Of a stretch of DNA of 64,000 bases, positions 50,943 through 56,862 are shown in pieces. Source of the DNA: Zoogloea sp. (GTDB lineage Bacteria > Pseudomonadota > Gammaproteobacteria > Burkholderiales > Rhodocyclaceae); the NCBI RefSeq assembly GCF_023150065.1, contig NZ_JAKLLN010000002.1:310001-374000 (forward strand), written 5' to 3'. The translations under genes were made by a program, and so were the position numbers. Numbering within the stretch: the stretch's first letter is position 1; each line of letters begins with the position of its first letter. The notes beneath the pieces were generated by a model that was not told the DNA's origin, searched no databases, and saw only the letters and a list, made by a program, of their open reading frames with translations.

Positions 50943-51812
50943 TCAGAAATCGCGGGATGCTCGCTTTCGCGCCCGTCTGGCCGTGGCGAAGGCGGCTTCG
51001 CGCATGCCAGCAAACATGTCATTCAGGAATGCGGTGACGATGGGGGGCGCTTTCTCGGGGGAGCCGGCGTTGAAGCCCGGGTCGGGGTCGTATTCCAGGT
51101 AGAGCTGGATGGCCTCCGCATAGCTGCGGTTGCGCAGCTGGGCGACGAGGGCGAGGCCGAAGTCCAGCCCCGCCGTGACCCCGCCGCCGGTGATGCGGTT
51201 GCGGTCGGTGACGATGCGGCCGGGCGTGGGAATCGCCCCGAGTTCGGCGAGGACATCGCGGGTGGCCCAGTGGGAGGTGGCCCGGTAGCCGTCGAGGAGG
51301 CCGGCTGCGCCGAGAATCAGCGAGCCGGTGCATACACTGGTGACGAAGCGTGCGTTCGGTGCGGCCCGGGCCAGGAAATCCAGCACGGTGCTGTCTTCCA
51401 TCATCGTGAAGCTGCCTGGAACGCCCCCTGGCACAAACAGCACGTCGAGCTGTGTGGGGCATTGGCTGAAAGTGGTGGTGGGTTTGACCGGAATCAGGGC
51501 GGGGCCGCCTGAGCCATCGTTGCCCACCGGGTCCAGGTTCTTCCACAGCAGGTGGATGTCCCGGTTCATCAGCGCTTCGAACATGCTCAAGGGCCCCACC
51601 AGGTCCTGCAGGAACATGCCCGGATAGACGAGCATGCCGATGCTCAGCTTGGGGCCGCCGGTGAGCTCGGCGTAACGCAGCATGGCTTCCTGGTGATGGC
51701 GTTCGGCGGTTTCGGCCGTTACGGGCGCCGCGGCGTGGGAAGGTGCCGCCCCGGCCAGCACCCGGGCCAGGATGGAGAGGGCGGCGAGTCTGGTGAAGTC
51801 GCGACGATCCAT
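50943..51812 (-). CDS. Exported DJ-1/PfpI-family protein (isonitrile-hydratase-like)
   Basis: A 289-residue protein. The N-terminus RRDFTRLAALSILARVLAG resembles a Tat signal, which predicts periplasmic export and is unusual for DJ-1/PfpI proteins. The core has IGMLVYPGMFLQDLVGPLSMFEA, PGGVPGS and the nucleophile Cys161 in FVTSVCTGSLILGAAGLL with a following SHWATRDVL, as in isonitrile hydratase InhA. Possible reactions include isonitrile hydration, deglycase or chaperone activity; I cannot choose. It begins 10 bases after regA, so it is co-transcribed with regBA and leads into the mbnP cluster. Confidence 0.8.
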   Translation of the reverse strand: MDRRDFTRLAALSILARVLAGAAPSHAAAPVTAETAERHHQEAMLRYAELTGGPKLSIGMLVYPGMFLQDLVGPLSMFEALMNRDIHLLWKNLDPVGNDGSGGPALIPVKPTTTFSQCPTQLDVLFVPGGVPGSFTMMEDSTVLDFLARAAPNARFVTSVCTGSLILGAAGLLDGYRATSHWATRDVLAELGAIPTPGRIVTDRNRITGGGVTAGLDFGLALVAQLRNRSYAEAIQLYLEYDPDPGFNAGSPEKAPPIVTAFLNDMFAGMREAAFATARRARKRASRDF

Positions 51813-51822
51813 GGGCTTCCTT

Positions 51823-52389
51823 TCAGGGTTCCTGGGCCTGGGGGCGTCTCTTGCCGAGCTTGCGCTGCAGGGTGCGCCGGTGCATCTTCAGGGCTCGTGC
51901 CGTGGCGGTGATGTTGCCGCCGTTCTCGGCGAGGGCGCGCTGGATGTACTCCCATTCGAGGCCCTGCACGGTCATCCACTCTTCCGGTGCCTCGTCCTGG
52001 CCGGTGCTTGCCGTGGTGCCGAGCAGGGACGCGACGATCATGCCGATGCGGGCGGGTTTGGTGAGGTACTCGACGGCGCCGAGTTTCACGGCGTTCACCG
52101 CAGTGGCGATGCTGGCGTAGCCGGTCAGGACGACGAGCCGGGCATCGGGGGCCGCCTCAAGGATGGGCCCGATCAGCTTGAGGCCGGACTGCCCTCCCAG
52201 GTTGAGGTCCAGCAGGACGTAGGCGGGCCCGACCCTCAGCGCCAGCGCCAGGGCGTCGTCAGCGGCGCTGGCGACGTTAACGCTGAAGCCATGTTGCTGG
52301 AGCGCGCGCGACAGTACCCGCGCAAAAGCCTCGTCGTCCTCCACCAGCAGCAGCGACCCATGGGCCGGAACGGCGGTGCTTAGCTCCAT
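51823..52389 (-). CDS. regA: RegA/PrrA-type redox response regulator
   Basis: A 188-residue regulator. The receiver has LLLVEDDEAF (acidic residues 17-19), Asp61 in VLLDLNLGGQSG, Thr in LTGYAS and Lys in YLTKPA, all intact. The DNA-binding end is a Fis-type HTH, GGNITATARALKMHRRTLQR, nearly the RegA/ActR signature. RegA-type regulators control oxidases, hydrogenases and carbon or nitrogen fixation in response to redox state. Its start overlaps the regB end by 10 bases. The divergent cyd operon is a natural target. Confidence 0.9.
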   Translation of the reverse strand: MELSTAVPAHGSLLLVEDDEAFARVLSRALQQHGFSVNVASAADDALALALRVGPAYVLLDLNLGGQSGLKLIGPILEAAPDARLVVLTGYASIATAVNAVKLGAVEYLTKPARIGMIVASLLGTTASTGQDEAPEEWMTVQGLEWEYIQRALAENGGNITATARALKMHRRTLQRKLGKRRPQAQEP

Positions 52390-53642
52390 AGCAGGGCAGC
52401 CCTGGGCAGGTGGATGGCGACCGTCATGGGTCGGTCGGGATTGCCGCGGATGAGTAGATCCCCGCCAAGCAGCTCGATGGCGGTGCGGGCCACCTCATCG
52501 CGGATCTCGGGGTCGGCTTTGGCCCCGGTACGGTCGGCGGCTTGGCGGGGGTGGTCACTGCCGGCTTCCTCCAGTTCCACGATGACCTGTTCGGTCTCGG
52601 TGTGGGCGCGGATGACGAGCCCGGCCCCGGCCGTTTCATGCAGGCCTTCCAGGAGGCTCTGGATGGCGGTTTCCAGCCCGGAGTCGGGGCGGAGGCGGGT
52701 CTGCGCCAGGTGGGCATCCAGATCCAGGCTCACATCGATGGTCGGGTGGGTGCTCTGCCAGGCGGCCACCAGTCCTCGTGCCCACTGGTCGAAGGGCATG
52801 GTCTGGCGGGTCTCGCTGCGCCCTTGTCCAGCCCTGGCGGTGAGTTCGGTGAGGCTGCCCTTGCAGGTGGCCACCTGAGCCTGCATCAATTCGAGGTCGG
52901 CACGCAGGTTCTCGTTACCGCGGTGCTCGTGCAGCAGCCCGTCGATGAGGATCTGCAGGGTGCCCAGCGGCGTGCTCATCTGGTGGGCGGTGCCGGCGGC
53001 GAGGGTGCCCAGGAACACCAGCCAGCGGTTGCGCATGGCGGCTTCCCGTGCAGTCGAGAGGGCCATGTCCCGGTGGCGCACGGCCTGCATCATGCGCGAC
53101 ACGAACCACACCACCACGATGGCCGAGACCACGAATACGGTCCACATGCCGAGGCGGTTCAGTTGCTCGGCCACCTGGGGGTCGGGTACGTCCAGGGGGA
53201 CGTAGCGGAACCACAGGAAGGAATAGGTGGCCACCGAGGCGAAGCCGAAGAACCAGGCGTGCCAGGCCGGCAGGATCATGGCGCCGACGGCGGCCAGGGG
53301 CAGGAAGACGGAGATCAGCGGGTTGCCGGCGCCGCCGGAGTAATACACGAAGGCGCCCCAGCCGATGAGGTCGAAGCCCAGCTGGACCAGGGGCGCGAAC
53401 AGGGACAGGCGCACCAGACCCTTGGGGTCGAGCAGCAGGGCCAGGTGCAGGCAGACGTTCACGCTGGCCATGACGGCGGCCACGGCGAGAAGGGGGGCGA
53501 TGAACAGGGCTTCGCCGGCCAGCCATTGCCCGGCGATGGCCGCCAGGATCATGGAGATCACCGAGAACCAGCGCAGGCCGATCAGGCGCCGCAGGGAAAT
53601 GGTGGGCAAGGGATCAGGAAGGGGAAGGGGCGCCTCGCGCAT
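52380..53642 (-). CDS. regB: RegB/PrrB-type redox sensor with degenerate ATP-binding domain
   Basis: A 420-residue sensor with about six transmembrane segments (residues 28-180). It retains the quinone-binding heptapeptide-like GGAGNPL (103-109; consensus GGxxNPF), the H-box His220 (GTAHQMSTPLGT) and the redox Cys260 (VATCKGS), 40 residues apart exactly as in Rhodobacter RegB. The catalytic domain, however, lacks recognisable N, G1 and G2 boxes: HETA replaces NNA, EEAGSD replaces DDGxG, and no GLGLG is present. It may be a phosphatase or signal relay rather than a kinase. ATG 53642 has GGAGG about 11 bases upstream. Confidence 0.85.
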   Translation of the reverse strand: MREAPLPLPDPLPTISLRRLIGLRWFSVISMILAAIAGQWLAGEALFIAPLLAVAAVMASVNVCLHLALLLDPKGLVRLSLFAPLVQLGFDLIGWGAFVYYSGGAGNPLISVFLPLAAVGAMILPAWHAWFFGFASVATYSFLWFRYVPLDVPDPQVAEQLNRLGMWTVFVVSAIVVVWFVSRMMQAVRHRDMALSTAREAAMRNRWLVFLGTLAAGTAHQMSTPLGTLQILIDGLLHEHRGNENLRADLELMQAQVATCKGSLTELTARAGQGRSETRQTMPFDQWARGLVAAWQSTHPTIDVSLDLDAHLAQTRLRPDSGLETAIQSLLEGLHETAGAGLVIRAHTETEQVIVELEEAGSDHPRQAADRTGAKADPEIRDEVARTAIELLGGDLLIRGNPDRPMTVAIHLPRAALLWS

Positions 53643-53670
53643 CGGCGATCGGTCCTCCAGGCGGGGAGAC

Positions 53671-53697
53671 AAAAAAAGAGCCCTGGGGTAAGGGCTC
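53671..53697 (-). terminator. Terminator-like hairpin in the regB 5' leader
   Basis: On the minus strand GAGCCCT, loop TACCCC, AGGGCTC is followed by seven T, a canonical intrinsic terminator. It lies 29 bases before the regB ATG, so it would either end an unannotated upstream leftward transcript or attenuate regB expression. Confidence 0.75.
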
Positions 53698-53800
53698 GAA
53701 AATGAGGTGGCTCATCTGTTTCCGGAGAGCTGCGACGAATCCTAGGCGGCCTCCCGGTGGCGGGAAAGTGACCGATCGTCGCACCTGGTGCGGAGCCTGC

Positions 53801-53815
53801 GCGGCGATCCGTCGC
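53801..53815. promoter_or_regulatory. Candidate RegA-binding site in the regB-cydP region
   Basis: GCGGC-GATCC-GTCGC fits the published RegA/PrrA pattern GCGRC-N(3-10)-GYCGC exactly. Such degenerate GC-rich patterns occur by chance in a genome like this, so position between regB and cydP is the main support. Confidence 0.35.
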
Positions 53816-53962
53816 GCGACCATGGGTCACTTCTGTGCGCCCATCCCCTTGTCCAGAATCCGCCCCGTCCGACGCTCCAGGGCCCGGACAGTCCTCCCGC
53901 CGGGAGCGCTCCGCCAGGGCCTCCCGGCACCCTTTACGCTATCCCTGCGGGAGTTTCCCGAG

Positions 53963-54184
53963 ATGAAGTCCTTGCCGTTTCCGTCCAGCCGGCTGGCCCG
54001 GGACGTCACCCTCACCATCGCGGTCAAGCTGCTTCTGGTGGCCTGCCTGAAGTTCGCCTTCTTCAGTGAGCCCATGGACAAGGCCGAGGCCGCGCAGCGG
54101 ATTGCCGATCGCCTGTCGGGGCCTTCCGTGCCAGCGGGCGATGTGACACCGCCGTCATCCCATCCACATCCGGAGAAACCATGA
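53963..54184 (+). CDS. cydP: Cytochrome bd oxidase putative small subunit CydP
   Basis: A 73-residue protein. LARDVTLTIAVKLLLVACLKFAFFS (one transmembrane helix, about residues 12-36, given here in part) followed by EPMDK matches the CydP pattern of RDL...KL..L...FF..P. A His/Pro-rich tail follows. Its stop overlaps the cydA start (ATGA at 54181). It is probably an accessory transmembrane subunit; function is inferred from the family name and synteny. Confidence 0.8.
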   Translation: MKSLPFPSSRLARDVTLTIAVKLLLVACLKFAFFSEPMDKAEAAQRIADRLSGPSVPAGDVTPPSSHPHPEKP

Positions 54185-55716
54185 TCAACGAAACCGTCGT
54201 CGATCTGTCGCGGCTGCAGTTCGCCGCCACTGCGCTCTACCACTTCCTGTTCGTTCCTCTGACCCTTGGCCTGTCCTGGCTGCTGGTGATCATGGAGGCC
54301 GCCTACGTGATGAGCGGCAAGGAGATCTACAAGGACATGACCCGCTTCTGGGGCAAACTCTACGGCATCAACTTTGCACTGGGCGTCACCACCGGCATCA
54401 CCATGGAGTTCCAGTTCGGCACCAACTGGGCCTATTACTCCCATTACGTGGGTGACATCTTCGGGGCGCCCCTGGCCATCGAAGGGCTGATGGCCTTCTT
54501 CCTTGAATCGACCATGGTCGGTCTGTTCTTCTTTGGCTGGAATCGTCTGTCCAAGGCCGGCCACCTCACCGTCACCACCCTGATGGCCCTGGGCACCAAC
54601 CTGTCGGCGGTGCTGATCCTGATCGCCAACGGCTGGATGCAGGATCCGGTGGGGTCGGCCTTCAACCCGGTGACCATGCGCATGGAGCTGACCGACTTCG
54701 CCGCGCTGGTCTTCAACCCGGTGGCCCAGTCCAAATTCGTGCATACGGTGTCGGCCGGCTATGTGACCGGCTCCCTGTTCGTGCTCGGCATCTCGTCCTG
54801 GTATCTGCTCAAGGGGCAGCACGTGGAGTTCGCCCGTCGCTCCTTCCGCATCGCCGCGGCCTTCGGCCTGGCCGGCACGGCGTCGGTGATTGTGCTCGGT
54901 GACGAATCGGGTTACTCGGTGGGCGAGGCCCAGCGCTCCAAGCTGGCAGCCATCGAAGCCATGTGGGAGACCGAGCCGGCACCCGCGGGCTTCAATCTGA
55001 TCGCCATTCCCAACGAGGCCCGCCAGGCCAATGACTTCGAGCTGCGCATTCCCTATGTGCTGGGGCTGATCGCCACCCGTTCGACAACTGAAGTCGTCCC
55101 TGGCATCAAGGAGATCCGCGAGAACAACCGTCAGCGCATCGAGTCGGGCATCCAGGCGGTGATCGCCCTTGAGGGTATGCGCAAGAACCCGCAGGACGAG
55201 GCGGCGCGGGCTGCCTTCAAGGCCCACGAGAAGGATCTGGGCTACGGCCTGCTGGTGAAGAAGTACGTGCAGGACCCCCGTCAGGCCACGCCGGAGATCA
55301 TCCACAAGGCCGCCATGGATTCGGTGCCGCGCATCGCTCCCCTGTTCTGGAGCTTCCGGGTGATGGTCGGTCTGGGCATGGCCATGCTGGCCCTGATGGT
55401 GGTGGCCTTCTGGCACAGCGTGAAGGGCACGTTCCAGAACAAGCCCTGGCTGCTCAAATGGGCGCTTTATTCCATCCCCATGCCGTGGGTCGCCATCGAG
55501 GCCGGCTGGTTCGTTGCGGAATACGGTCGTCAGCCGTGGACGGTGTTCGGTGTGCTGCCTACTCACCTCTCGGCTTCCAGCCTGTCGGTGGAGAGCCTGT
55601 GGGGCTCCATCGCCGGCTTCGTCGGTTTCTATTCGCTGCTGCTCGTGGCGGAGATGTACCTGATGTTCAAGTACGCCCGTCTCGGCCCCTCCGTCCTGCA
55701 CGCCAAGACTGCCTGA
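54181..55716 (+). CDS. cydA: Cytochrome bd ubiquinol oxidase subunit I
   Basis: A 511-residue integral membrane protein with about nine helices. Heme b595/d ligand His21 is in ALYHFLFVPLT, the b558 ligand His in SKFVHTVSAGY, and the conserved Glu pair region is GVTTGITMEFQFGTNW to GAPLAIEGLMAFFLEST. The Q-loop is the long form: GDESGYSVGEAQRSKLAAIE and ALGLIATRS-like sequence, with DLGYGLLVKKY inserted as in E. coli CydA. It oxidises ubiquinol and reduces oxygen with high affinity. It is coupled to cydP and followed by cydB after 9 bases. Confidence 0.96.
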   Translation: MINETVVDLSRLQFAATALYHFLFVPLTLGLSWLLVIMEAAYVMSGKEIYKDMTRFWGKLYGINFALGVTTGITMEFQFGTNWAYYSHYVGDIFGAPLAIEGLMAFFLESTMVGLFFFGWNRLSKAGHLTVTTLMALGTNLSAVLILIANGWMQDPVGSAFNPVTMRMELTDFAALVFNPVAQSKFVHTVSAGYVTGSLFVLGISSWYLLKGQHVEFARRSFRIAAAFGLAGTASVIVLGDESGYSVGEAQRSKLAAIEAMWETEPAPAGFNLIAIPNEARQANDFELRIPYVLGLIATRSTTEVVPGIKEIRENNRQRIESGIQAVIALEGMRKNPQDEAARAAFKAHEKDLGYGLLVKKYVQDPRQATPEIIHKAAMDSVPRIAPLFWSFRVMVGLGMAMLALMVVAFWHSVKGTFQNKPWLLKWALYSIPMPWVAIEAGWFVAEYGRQPWTVFGVLPTHLSASSLSVESLWGSIAGFVGFYSLLLVAEMYLMFKYARLGPSVLHAKTA

Positions 55717-55725
55717 GGATCCATC

Positions 55726-56862
55726 ATGTTTGATTATGCAACCCTGAAACTGATCTGGTGGCTGCTGGTGGGCGTGCTGCTCATCGGTTTTGCCATCATG
55801 GATGGCCACGACATGGGCGTGGGCACGCTGCTGCCCTTTCTGGGCAAGGACGATACCGACCGCCGGGTGATGATCAACAGCGTCGCGCCCCACTGGGATG
55901 GCAACCAGGTGTGGTTCATCACCGCTGGCGGTGCCGTCTTCGCGGCCTGGCCCCTGGTGTATGCCACCGCCTTCTCCGGCCTTTACTGGGCCTTGCTGTT
56001 GGTGCTGTTTGCGCTGTTCTTCCGGCCAGTGGGCTTCGAGTACCGCTCGAAACTGCCCAACCCGGCCTGGCGGAAGGGCTGGGACTGGGGCCTGTTCGCC
56101 GGCAGTGCCGTGCCGGCCCTGGTGTTCGGGGTGGCCTTCGGCAACCTCTTCCAGGGCGTGCCCTTCGATCTGGACGACAGCATGCGCTCCACCTATTCAG
56201 GCTCCTTCTGGGCGCTGCTCAATCCCTTTGCCCTGCTCTGCGGTGTGGTGAGCCTCTCCCTGCTCACCCTGCAGGGGGCCACCTTTCTCTCCCATCGGGT
56301 CGAGGGGCCGCTGCAGCGGCGCACCATCCTGGCTGCCCGGGTATGCGGTGTCGTGCTGTTGGTGAGTTTTTCGCTGGCGGGCATGTGGGTGGCGCGGATG
56401 GAGGGCTATGTGCTGGAGTCCATCCCCGATGTGCGCGGCGTGCTGACCCCGCTGATGAAGGAGGTGGGCCGGGCGCCGGGGGGCTGGTTTGCCAACTTCA
56501 ACAACTTCCCGCAGCTGTGGATCATCCCTGTGCTGGCCTACGCCGGTGTGGGGGTGGTGCTGGCCAGCATCGGCAGCGGATGGACGCTGCTGTCCTTCGT
56601 GGCGTCCTCGGTGGCCTGCGTAAGCGTGATCCTGACCGCGGGCGTGGCCCTGTTCCCCTTCGTGCTGCCTTCGTCCACCCATCCGGACGTCAGCCTCACG
56701 GCCTGGGACGCCACCTCCAGCCAGCTCACCCTGACGGTGATGCTGTGGGTCGCCCTGATCTTCACCCCCATCGTTGTGGCCTACACCAGCTGGGCCTACC
56801 GGGTGATGGCCGGAAAGATCACCCGCGACTACATCGCGGCCAATGACAAGCAACTCTACTGA
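55726..56862 (+). CDS. cydB: Cytochrome bd ubiquinol oxidase subunit II
   Basis: A 378-residue membrane protein with about eight or nine helices. The family start is present (LIWWLLVGVLLIGFAIMDGHDMGVG in part), as are HWDGNQVWFITAGGAVFAAWP and the central VFGVAFGNLFQGVPF. A canonical GAGGAT ribosome-binding site precedes the ATG. With CydA and CydX it makes the low-oxygen terminal oxidase. Length equals E. coli CydB (379). Confidence 0.95.
   Translation: MFDYATLKLIWWLLVGVLLIGFAIMDGHDMGVGTLLPFLGKDDTDRRVMINSVAPHWDGNQVWFITAGGAVFAAWPLVYATAFSGLYWALLLVLFALFFRPVGFEYRSKLPNPAWRKGWDWGLFAGSAVPALVFGVAFGNLFQGVPFDLDDSMRSTYSGSFWALLNPFALLCGVVSLSLLTLQGATFLSHRVEGPLQRRTILAARVCGVVLLVSFSLAGMWVARMEGYVLESIPDVRGVLTPLMKEVGRAPGGWFANFNNFPQLWIIPVLAYAGVGVVLASIGSGWTLLSFVASSVACVSVILTAGVALFPFVLPSSTHPDVSLTAWDATSSQLTLTVMLWVALIFTPIVVAYTSWAYRVMAGKITRDYIAANDKQLY

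Follow-up and report, generated by a model that had tools for sequence, protein, structure and literature searches.

A putative histidine pseudokinase of the RegB family encoded beside cytochrome bd oxidase genes in Zoogloea

The window, the whole 64,000-nucleotide stretch of Zoogloea DNA that was analyzed, carries on its minus strand two overlapping genes of a two-component system. The first, regB2 (positions 52380 to 53642; 420 amino acids from ATG plus stop), encodes a RegB-family sensor with a motif-less catalytic domain, and its end is overlapped by the start codon of regA2 (51823 to 52389). RegA2 is a response regulator of the ActR/PrrA/RegA type, with Pfam Response_reg and HTH_8 matches above cut-off and an NCBIfam ActR/PrrA score of 167.7 bits, below the cut-off of 250. 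An earlier note, made from the letters of the sequence, described the receiver of this partner as intact, and D18/D19, the phospho-acceptor D61, T89, and K111 of its pocket are all present. Upstream of regB2 and divergently oriented, on the plus strand, lie cydP (53963 to 54184), encoding a putative small subunit of bd oxidase (NCBIfam NF045611, 37.9 bits, cut-off 29.6); cydA (54181 to 55716), encoding cytochrome bd oxidase subunit I (NCBIfam subunit I, 790 bits, below the cut-off of 968); and cydB (55726 to 56862), encoding subunit II (NCBIfam TIGR00203, 495 bits, cut-off 117.3). Downstream of regA2 is the gene of a DJ-1/PfpI-like protein (50943 to 51812) whose NCBIfam matches are all below cut-off; its N-terminus looks signal-like by eye, and it also adjoins regA2 in another Zoogloea genome, G022.

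RegB2 keeps the sensing elements of RegB, all encoded on the minus strand. Its membrane domain (residues 26-181, positions 53100 to 53567) shows six hydrophobic segments in a hydropathy profile averaged across 14 relatives, in agreement with the six helices first proposed; the window sequence alone resolves fewer than six, and a full-length model has six N-terminal helices at low confidence (mean pLDDT 51). GGAGNPL was confirmed at residues 103-109 (53316 to 53336), with G103, G104, N107, P108, and L109 invariant in 14 of 14 RegB2 proteins, and we take this GGxxNP element to be the quinone-site motif of RegB. Equally invariant in the 14 proteins are H220 and T224 of the H-box core H220-Q221-M-S-T224 (52971 to 52985), where Thr224 occupies the H+4 position, four residues after His220, and Cys260 (52863 to 52865). 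The distance from His220 to Cys260 is exactly 40 residues, as the earlier note had claimed, a spacing presumably found in Rhodobacter capsulatus RegB as well. The counterpart of Cys260 in R. capsulatus RegB is the redox cysteine Cys265 (PMC9147068). A feature absent from the earlier note is the residue at H+1, which is Gln in RegB2 (AHQMSTP) and Glu in its canonical paralogue in this genome (AHELGTP). RegB2 scores 145.5 bits against the curated NCBIfam ActS/PrrB/RegB family, below its cut-off of 350.

The N, D, and G boxes of ATP binding, which the earlier note had reported as lost from the C-terminal catalytic domain (residues 280-420, 52383 to 52805, minus strand), are absent. A Pfam scan found no HATPase_c in RegB2 at an E value of ≤10, in a search where HMMER filters discard most matches above about 0.1, and the only Pfam match is a sub-threshold HisKA (16.5 bits, cut-off 26.9); the genome's canonical RegB matches HATPase_c with 50.5 bits (cut-off 26.4). 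Alignment with intact RegB2 proteins places the former D-box at EEAGSD (residues 358-363, 52554 to 52571) and the former G-box with the helix that follows it, opposite the GMGIG region, at PEIRDEVARTAIELLGG (residues 378-394, 52461 to 52511), both as first located. LHETA, the first assignment for the N-box, is a few residues off: the position falls on E332-G333 within SLLEGLH (329-335), and it is LLEGLH (330-335, 52638 to 52655) that aligns with NLLDNA.

The motifs are gone, and the fold of the catalytic domain is apparently retained, as far as the model shows. The four motif-less tails align with seven intact RegB2 catalytic domains over 133 columns (hhalign, 99%, E 3e-18), which rules out replacement of the C-terminus by an unrelated domain. 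An AlphaFold2 model of residues 196-420, built from four alignment rows (mean pLDDT 71.8, pTM 0.58), predicts a HATPase_c-like fold whose helices and strands follow the order typical of that domain. Its pLDDT is below 50 at residues 363-376 (the lid), 272-278, and 212-222; this last stretch surrounds His220, and its low score counts against the explanation that we prefer below. Foldseek returned 342 matches at E ≤0.001, those listed being mostly histidine kinases and phytochromes, with DivL (4q20) and RetS (6dk7) among the best 50 of the 342 and with whole-chain TM scores of only 0.42 to 0.53; a search of solved structures with the RegB2 sequence gave one match (E 0.082). Frameshift or assembly error was rejected as an unlikely source of the loss, because inspection by eye shows none of the motifs in the other two same-strand frames and the loss recurs in three other genomes. 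The opposite strand carries a chance GLGVG in one frame.

Homologues with the same motif loss were found in three other Zoogloea genomes (G022, 84% identity; G010, 59%; G014, 55%). The ATP motifs are absent from all four full-length RegB2 proteins of the genus, one in each of four species, and the replacements of the Asn, Asp, and Gly motifs vary between the species. A canonical RegB-RegA pair, with boxes NNAAD, DRGPG, and GLGIG, is encoded on another contig of the window genome, and a RegB match was found in 23 of 23 Zoogloea genomes examined. Comparison of the four genomes, together with the selection analysis below, gives good support to the earlier view of RegB2 as a RegB-type sensor without an ATP-dependent kinase of its own; that it is the cell's own RegB is contradicted by the paralogue. 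An intact canonical RegB occurs in five of the six genomes with a motif-less or eroded RegB2 (the window genome G000, G022, G014, G405, and G784), and the sixth, G010, has a canonical RegA and a RegB match that breaks off close to the end of a contig. Since canonical RegB coexists with it, a source of phosphate exists beside the motif-less RegB2. Full-length RegA2 is limited to the window genome and G022 among the 23 Zoogloea genomes (≥305 bits; others ≤200). G010 and G014, whose assemblies are incomplete (89 and 88%), have RegB2 without a RegA2 match, their sole RegA being canonical. G004 holds only a remnant of both genes (the end of regB2 and the start of regA2, with the first 66 RegA2 residues), G016 a regB2 fragment at a contig end, and G010 a second regB2 fragment (C285) with a stop. 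The lack of RegA2 in G010 and G014 and the remnants in G004 indicate that the RegB2-RegA2 pair is dispensable.

In a tree of 38 rows, based on membrane and DHp columns only, the 14 RegB2 proteins lie on one side of a branch (support 100/98) and form a clade separate from canonical RegB. Four are from Zoogloea, nine from g86, another genus of the family (9 of its 76 genomes), and one from G066. When the 14-row profile was run against 385 genomes of the family, six RegB2 proteins scored ≥560 bits, all of them rows of the profile and high by construction, and the next match reached 413; among 300 genomes drawn from the order, no match exceeded 374 bits except the window RegB2 and that of G066, both of the same family. 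Outside Zoogloea, the motifs are intact in 8 of 10 proteins: all three boxes are present in G066, six g86 proteins combine the N, D, and G boxes with Glu at H+1 (G827, G814, G389, G786, G825, and G808, whose contig ends inside the catalytic domain), and G379 of g86 has the boxes with Gln at H+1. Also in g86, G405 has an N-box and a partial D-box but no G-box (HATPase_c 29.0, cut-off 26.4), and G784 has lost all three boxes, with no Pfam HATPase_c. G405 and G784 group together (100/100), with G379 adjoining (97/91), apart from the group of the window (100/100), and the best tree requires two changes, counting G405 as lost. The motif loss of G405 and G784 is perhaps independent of the loss in Zoogloea; a firm claim of two independent losses is weakened by the AU test, which does not reject a tree uniting all six eroded proteins (p=0.109).

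Genes of cytochrome bd oxidase adjoin RegB2 in 11 of the 14 loci, ten head to head and that of G784 tail to tail. No cyd gene was found beside RegB2 in G014 (flanks of about 8.7 and 10 kb read) or in G814 (12 kb read), and the G825 genome yielded no CydA match. The locus of G825 (L170) nevertheless encodes RegB2 and RegA2 with intact boxes, and the pair can therefore have another target. In G014 (L024:3233-7790), regB2 lies between a TonB-dependent-receptor-like and a transglycosylase-like gene, both labeled by eye. One report describes binding of RegA to the regulatory region of cyd in Acidithiobacillus ferrooxidans and cites cydAB as a target of RegA in R. capsulatus (PMC5506826).

The H-box bears on which activity could survive. 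In the HisKA family, the acid at H+1 is described as needed for kinase activity only, and Thr or Asn at H+4 for phosphatase activity only (PMC3510030). Zoogloea RegB2 has lost the former and kept the latter as Thr224; H+1 is Gln in its four proteins and in G379 and acidic in G405 and G784. Gln221 is ruled out as proof of kinase loss and alone proves none, because Arg, Lys, or Ser stands at H+1 in 12 of 72 RegB H-boxes, and each of these 12 proteins has D- and G-boxes by pattern. The 72 are the parsable part of 82 rows, a nonrandom sample of best matches to RegB2 (10 rows did not parse). The 12 genes come from several genera (L138, L136, L137, L070, L157, L149, L144, L155, L159, L147, L143, and L151), and in the tree six of them fall among canonical RegB proteins. 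A DNA pattern for AH-Q, found in 18 of 399 genomes across the order, is not specific to RegB. Isolated DHp domains show phosphatase activity, greatly raised by the catalytic domain, and NtrB E140Q retained a phosphatase phenotype, in work that by its authors' account included no in vitro test (PMC3510030). The cbb3 oxidase is reported to inhibit PrrB by stimulating its phosphatase, an activity in which the membrane domain is important (PMC8399564). The ChrS pseudokinase ChrS_CA-fs apparently lost its phosphatase function (PMC9491836) and the phosphatase of DrBphP depends on ATP (PMC8292422), and from these precedents a RegB2 domain unable to bind ATP may be a poor phosphatase.

Between the window and G022, RegB2 has dN/dS values of 0.10 for the membrane domain, 0.11 for DHp, and 0.23 for the catalytic domain (bootstrap 0.14-0.36), the last of which shows that constraint persists in the motif-less domain; for canonical RegB, this pair of genomes yields 0.18, 0.11, and 0.28. 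The corresponding values are 0.27, 0.16, and 0.76 (0.50-1.08) for window versus G010 and 0.14, 0.19, and 0.51 (0.30-0.76) for G010 versus G014, and a second alignment raises the catalytic value to 0.91 for window versus G010 and 0.89 for window versus G014. By these comparisons, the sensor and DHp are held throughout the Zoogloea pairs (0.10-0.29 and 0.11-0.31), and the catalytic part is held between the window and G022, the most similar two, and is close to neutral over the deeper split. The near-neutral range of 0.76-0.91 between the window and G010 or G014 counts against a pseudokinase kept by selection. Faster change of the catalytic domain is weakened as a mark of motif loss: the ratio of catalytic dN to dN elsewhere is 2.8-5.3 in five eroded pairs, overlapping the 2.3-3.9 of seven pairs of intact RegB2 proteins (1.4-1.8 in five canonical pairs), since the RegB2 catalytic domain evolves fast anyway. 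Along the locus (window 51823-55716 versus L022), dS is 0.15 in cydA, 0.17 at the start of regB2, and 1.08 at its end, and falls beyond it to 0.67 in regA2 and 0.43 in the DJ-1/PfpI-like gene. This gradient, which we guess to reflect recombination near cydAB, calls for caution in comparing raw dN.

What, then, might RegB2 do? It keeps the sensor, the dimerization helices, His220, Thr224, and Cys260, and by sequence comparison the ATP motifs and the H+1 acid are gone. A fold kept by prediction, catalytic motifs lost, and a gene maintained are what a histidine pseudokinase would present, and possible partner genes, canonical RegB and RegA-type regulators, are present. We favor, with slightly better than even confidence, a reading of RegB2 as a naturally occurring histidine pseudokinase, a RegB duplicate located next to cytochrome bd genes, which probably tunes the signal of its sister sensor near a respiratory enzyme and sends none of its own. 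RegB2 would not autophosphorylate, its membrane domain and Cys260 would still read the quinol or oxidant state, and it would act on a RegA-type regulator phosphorylated by canonical RegB. Most likely it would strip phosphate from that regulator in a redox-dependent manner, because Thr224 is kept and the kinase residues are lost; otherwise it would pair with canonical RegB and shift the kinase/phosphatase balance of the latter. Through this regulator, it would control cydPAB as well as the regB2-regA2 genes themselves. The literature on HisKA, on cbb3 and PrrB, and on RegA and cyd points to redox-gated phosphatase activity, or else partnership with canonical RegB, as the likeliest role, and the phosphatase-only, allosteric, and borrowed-kinase options that the earlier note raised cannot be separated by sequence. 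In rough weights, a pseudokinase kept by selection is quite probable; given that, a phosphatase has about an even chance, an allosteric or heterodimeric role an appreciable minority share, and a phosphate acceptor in trans a small one.

Several other explanations were weighed. As a heterodimer partner, RegB2 would pair with canonical RegB via the DHp helices, lend it its sensor, and set its state without any catalysis of its own, a role that we regard as possible though rather doubtful. RegB2 would need such a partner in G010 and G014, where RegA2 was not found; however, RegA2 may be missing from these incomplete assemblies only. Precedents are reported for FasB-FasC (PMC12675982), for DivL-CckA and RetS-GacS (PMC12189002), and for ChrS-HrrS, whose native forms pair and whose truncated pseudokinase did not in a two-hybrid assay (PMC9491836). 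It is unlikely that RegB2 is instead a decaying relic, a duplicate on its way out whose frame is kept mainly by translation of regA2 coupled to the end of regB2. The overlap of the regA2 start with the regB2 stop and the debris in G004, G010, and G016 are consistent with decay, and the open frame is weak evidence, because the catalytic region stayed open in 12-38% of simulated neutral runs (substitution alone, three distances with 1,500 runs each). Decay is opposed by the low dN/dS of the membrane domain and DHp in the Zoogloea pairs, by the catalytic value of the closest pair, and by the frames of G010 and G014, which are open where no regA2 follows.

Quite unlikely is a borrowed kinase, in which canonical RegB would phosphorylate His220 in trans and the phosphate would then pass to RegA2. 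The invariance of His220 in the clade fits such a role, as does the acidic H+1 that G405 and G784 keep despite a degenerate catalytic domain, and FasC was proposed by its authors to be phosphorylated in this way (PMC12675982). The Gln at H+1 of the Zoogloea proteins and G379 speaks against it and makes kinase borrowing the least likely of the three options in Zoogloea, an argument weakened by the 12 box-bearing RegB proteins with a non-acidic H+1. An active kinase whose ATP pocket is unconventional is very improbable: the fold is predicted to be retained, but every one of the Asn, Asp, and Gly motifs is replaced, in ways that differ among the four species, and the lid at 363-376 is modeled with pLDDT below 50.

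If RegB2 is a pseudokinase, living species may record a stepwise conversion from a two-way kinase/phosphatase to a redox-gated modulator that works in one direction only, next to a single respiratory oxidase, with the kinase lost at least twice, a reading that we offer tentatively. The series would lead from intact proteins in the other genus through G379 (H+1 only) and the partial loss of G405 to the full loss of G784 and Zoogloea, and on to G010 and G014 without a regulator of their own.

RegB2 shares with RegB, PrrB, and ActS the membrane domain, GGxxNP, the H-box His, the redox Cys 40 residues later, and a neighboring RegA-type regulator; unlike them, it has no ATP motifs, carries Gln at H+1, and is a second copy besides a canonical pair, beside cydPAB. 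ChrS_CA-fs of Corynebacterium glutamicum is similarly a kinase-dead copy for which a paralogous system supplies phosphate, but it arose by a frameshift in laboratory evolution (PMC9491836), whereas RegB2 is natural, in frame throughout, and common to several species. DivL, RetS, and FasC likewise put a histidine-kinase fold to the service of partner regulation; they belong to other sensors and pathways, and quinone or Cys elements of the RegB type are not mentioned for them in the accounts cited above. DrBphP, a natural light-activated histidine phosphatase, also combines a non-acidic H+1 with a kept sensor, but its phosphatase requires ATP (PMC8292422) and RegB2 is without ATP motifs.

Histidine pseudokinases are thus already known; no RegB-family pseudokinase was found in the open-access literature among the matches listed, and the present case is apparently new among them. 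Few histidine pseudokinases are described in those matches, one of them made in the laboratory, and RegB2 offers a natural series from intact to motif-less proteins, mostly beside the same oxidase genes, for which a canonical paralogue provides a control within the same cells. It makes testable what a RegB sensor does without ATP, and whether redox input may act via phosphatase activity or via pairing.
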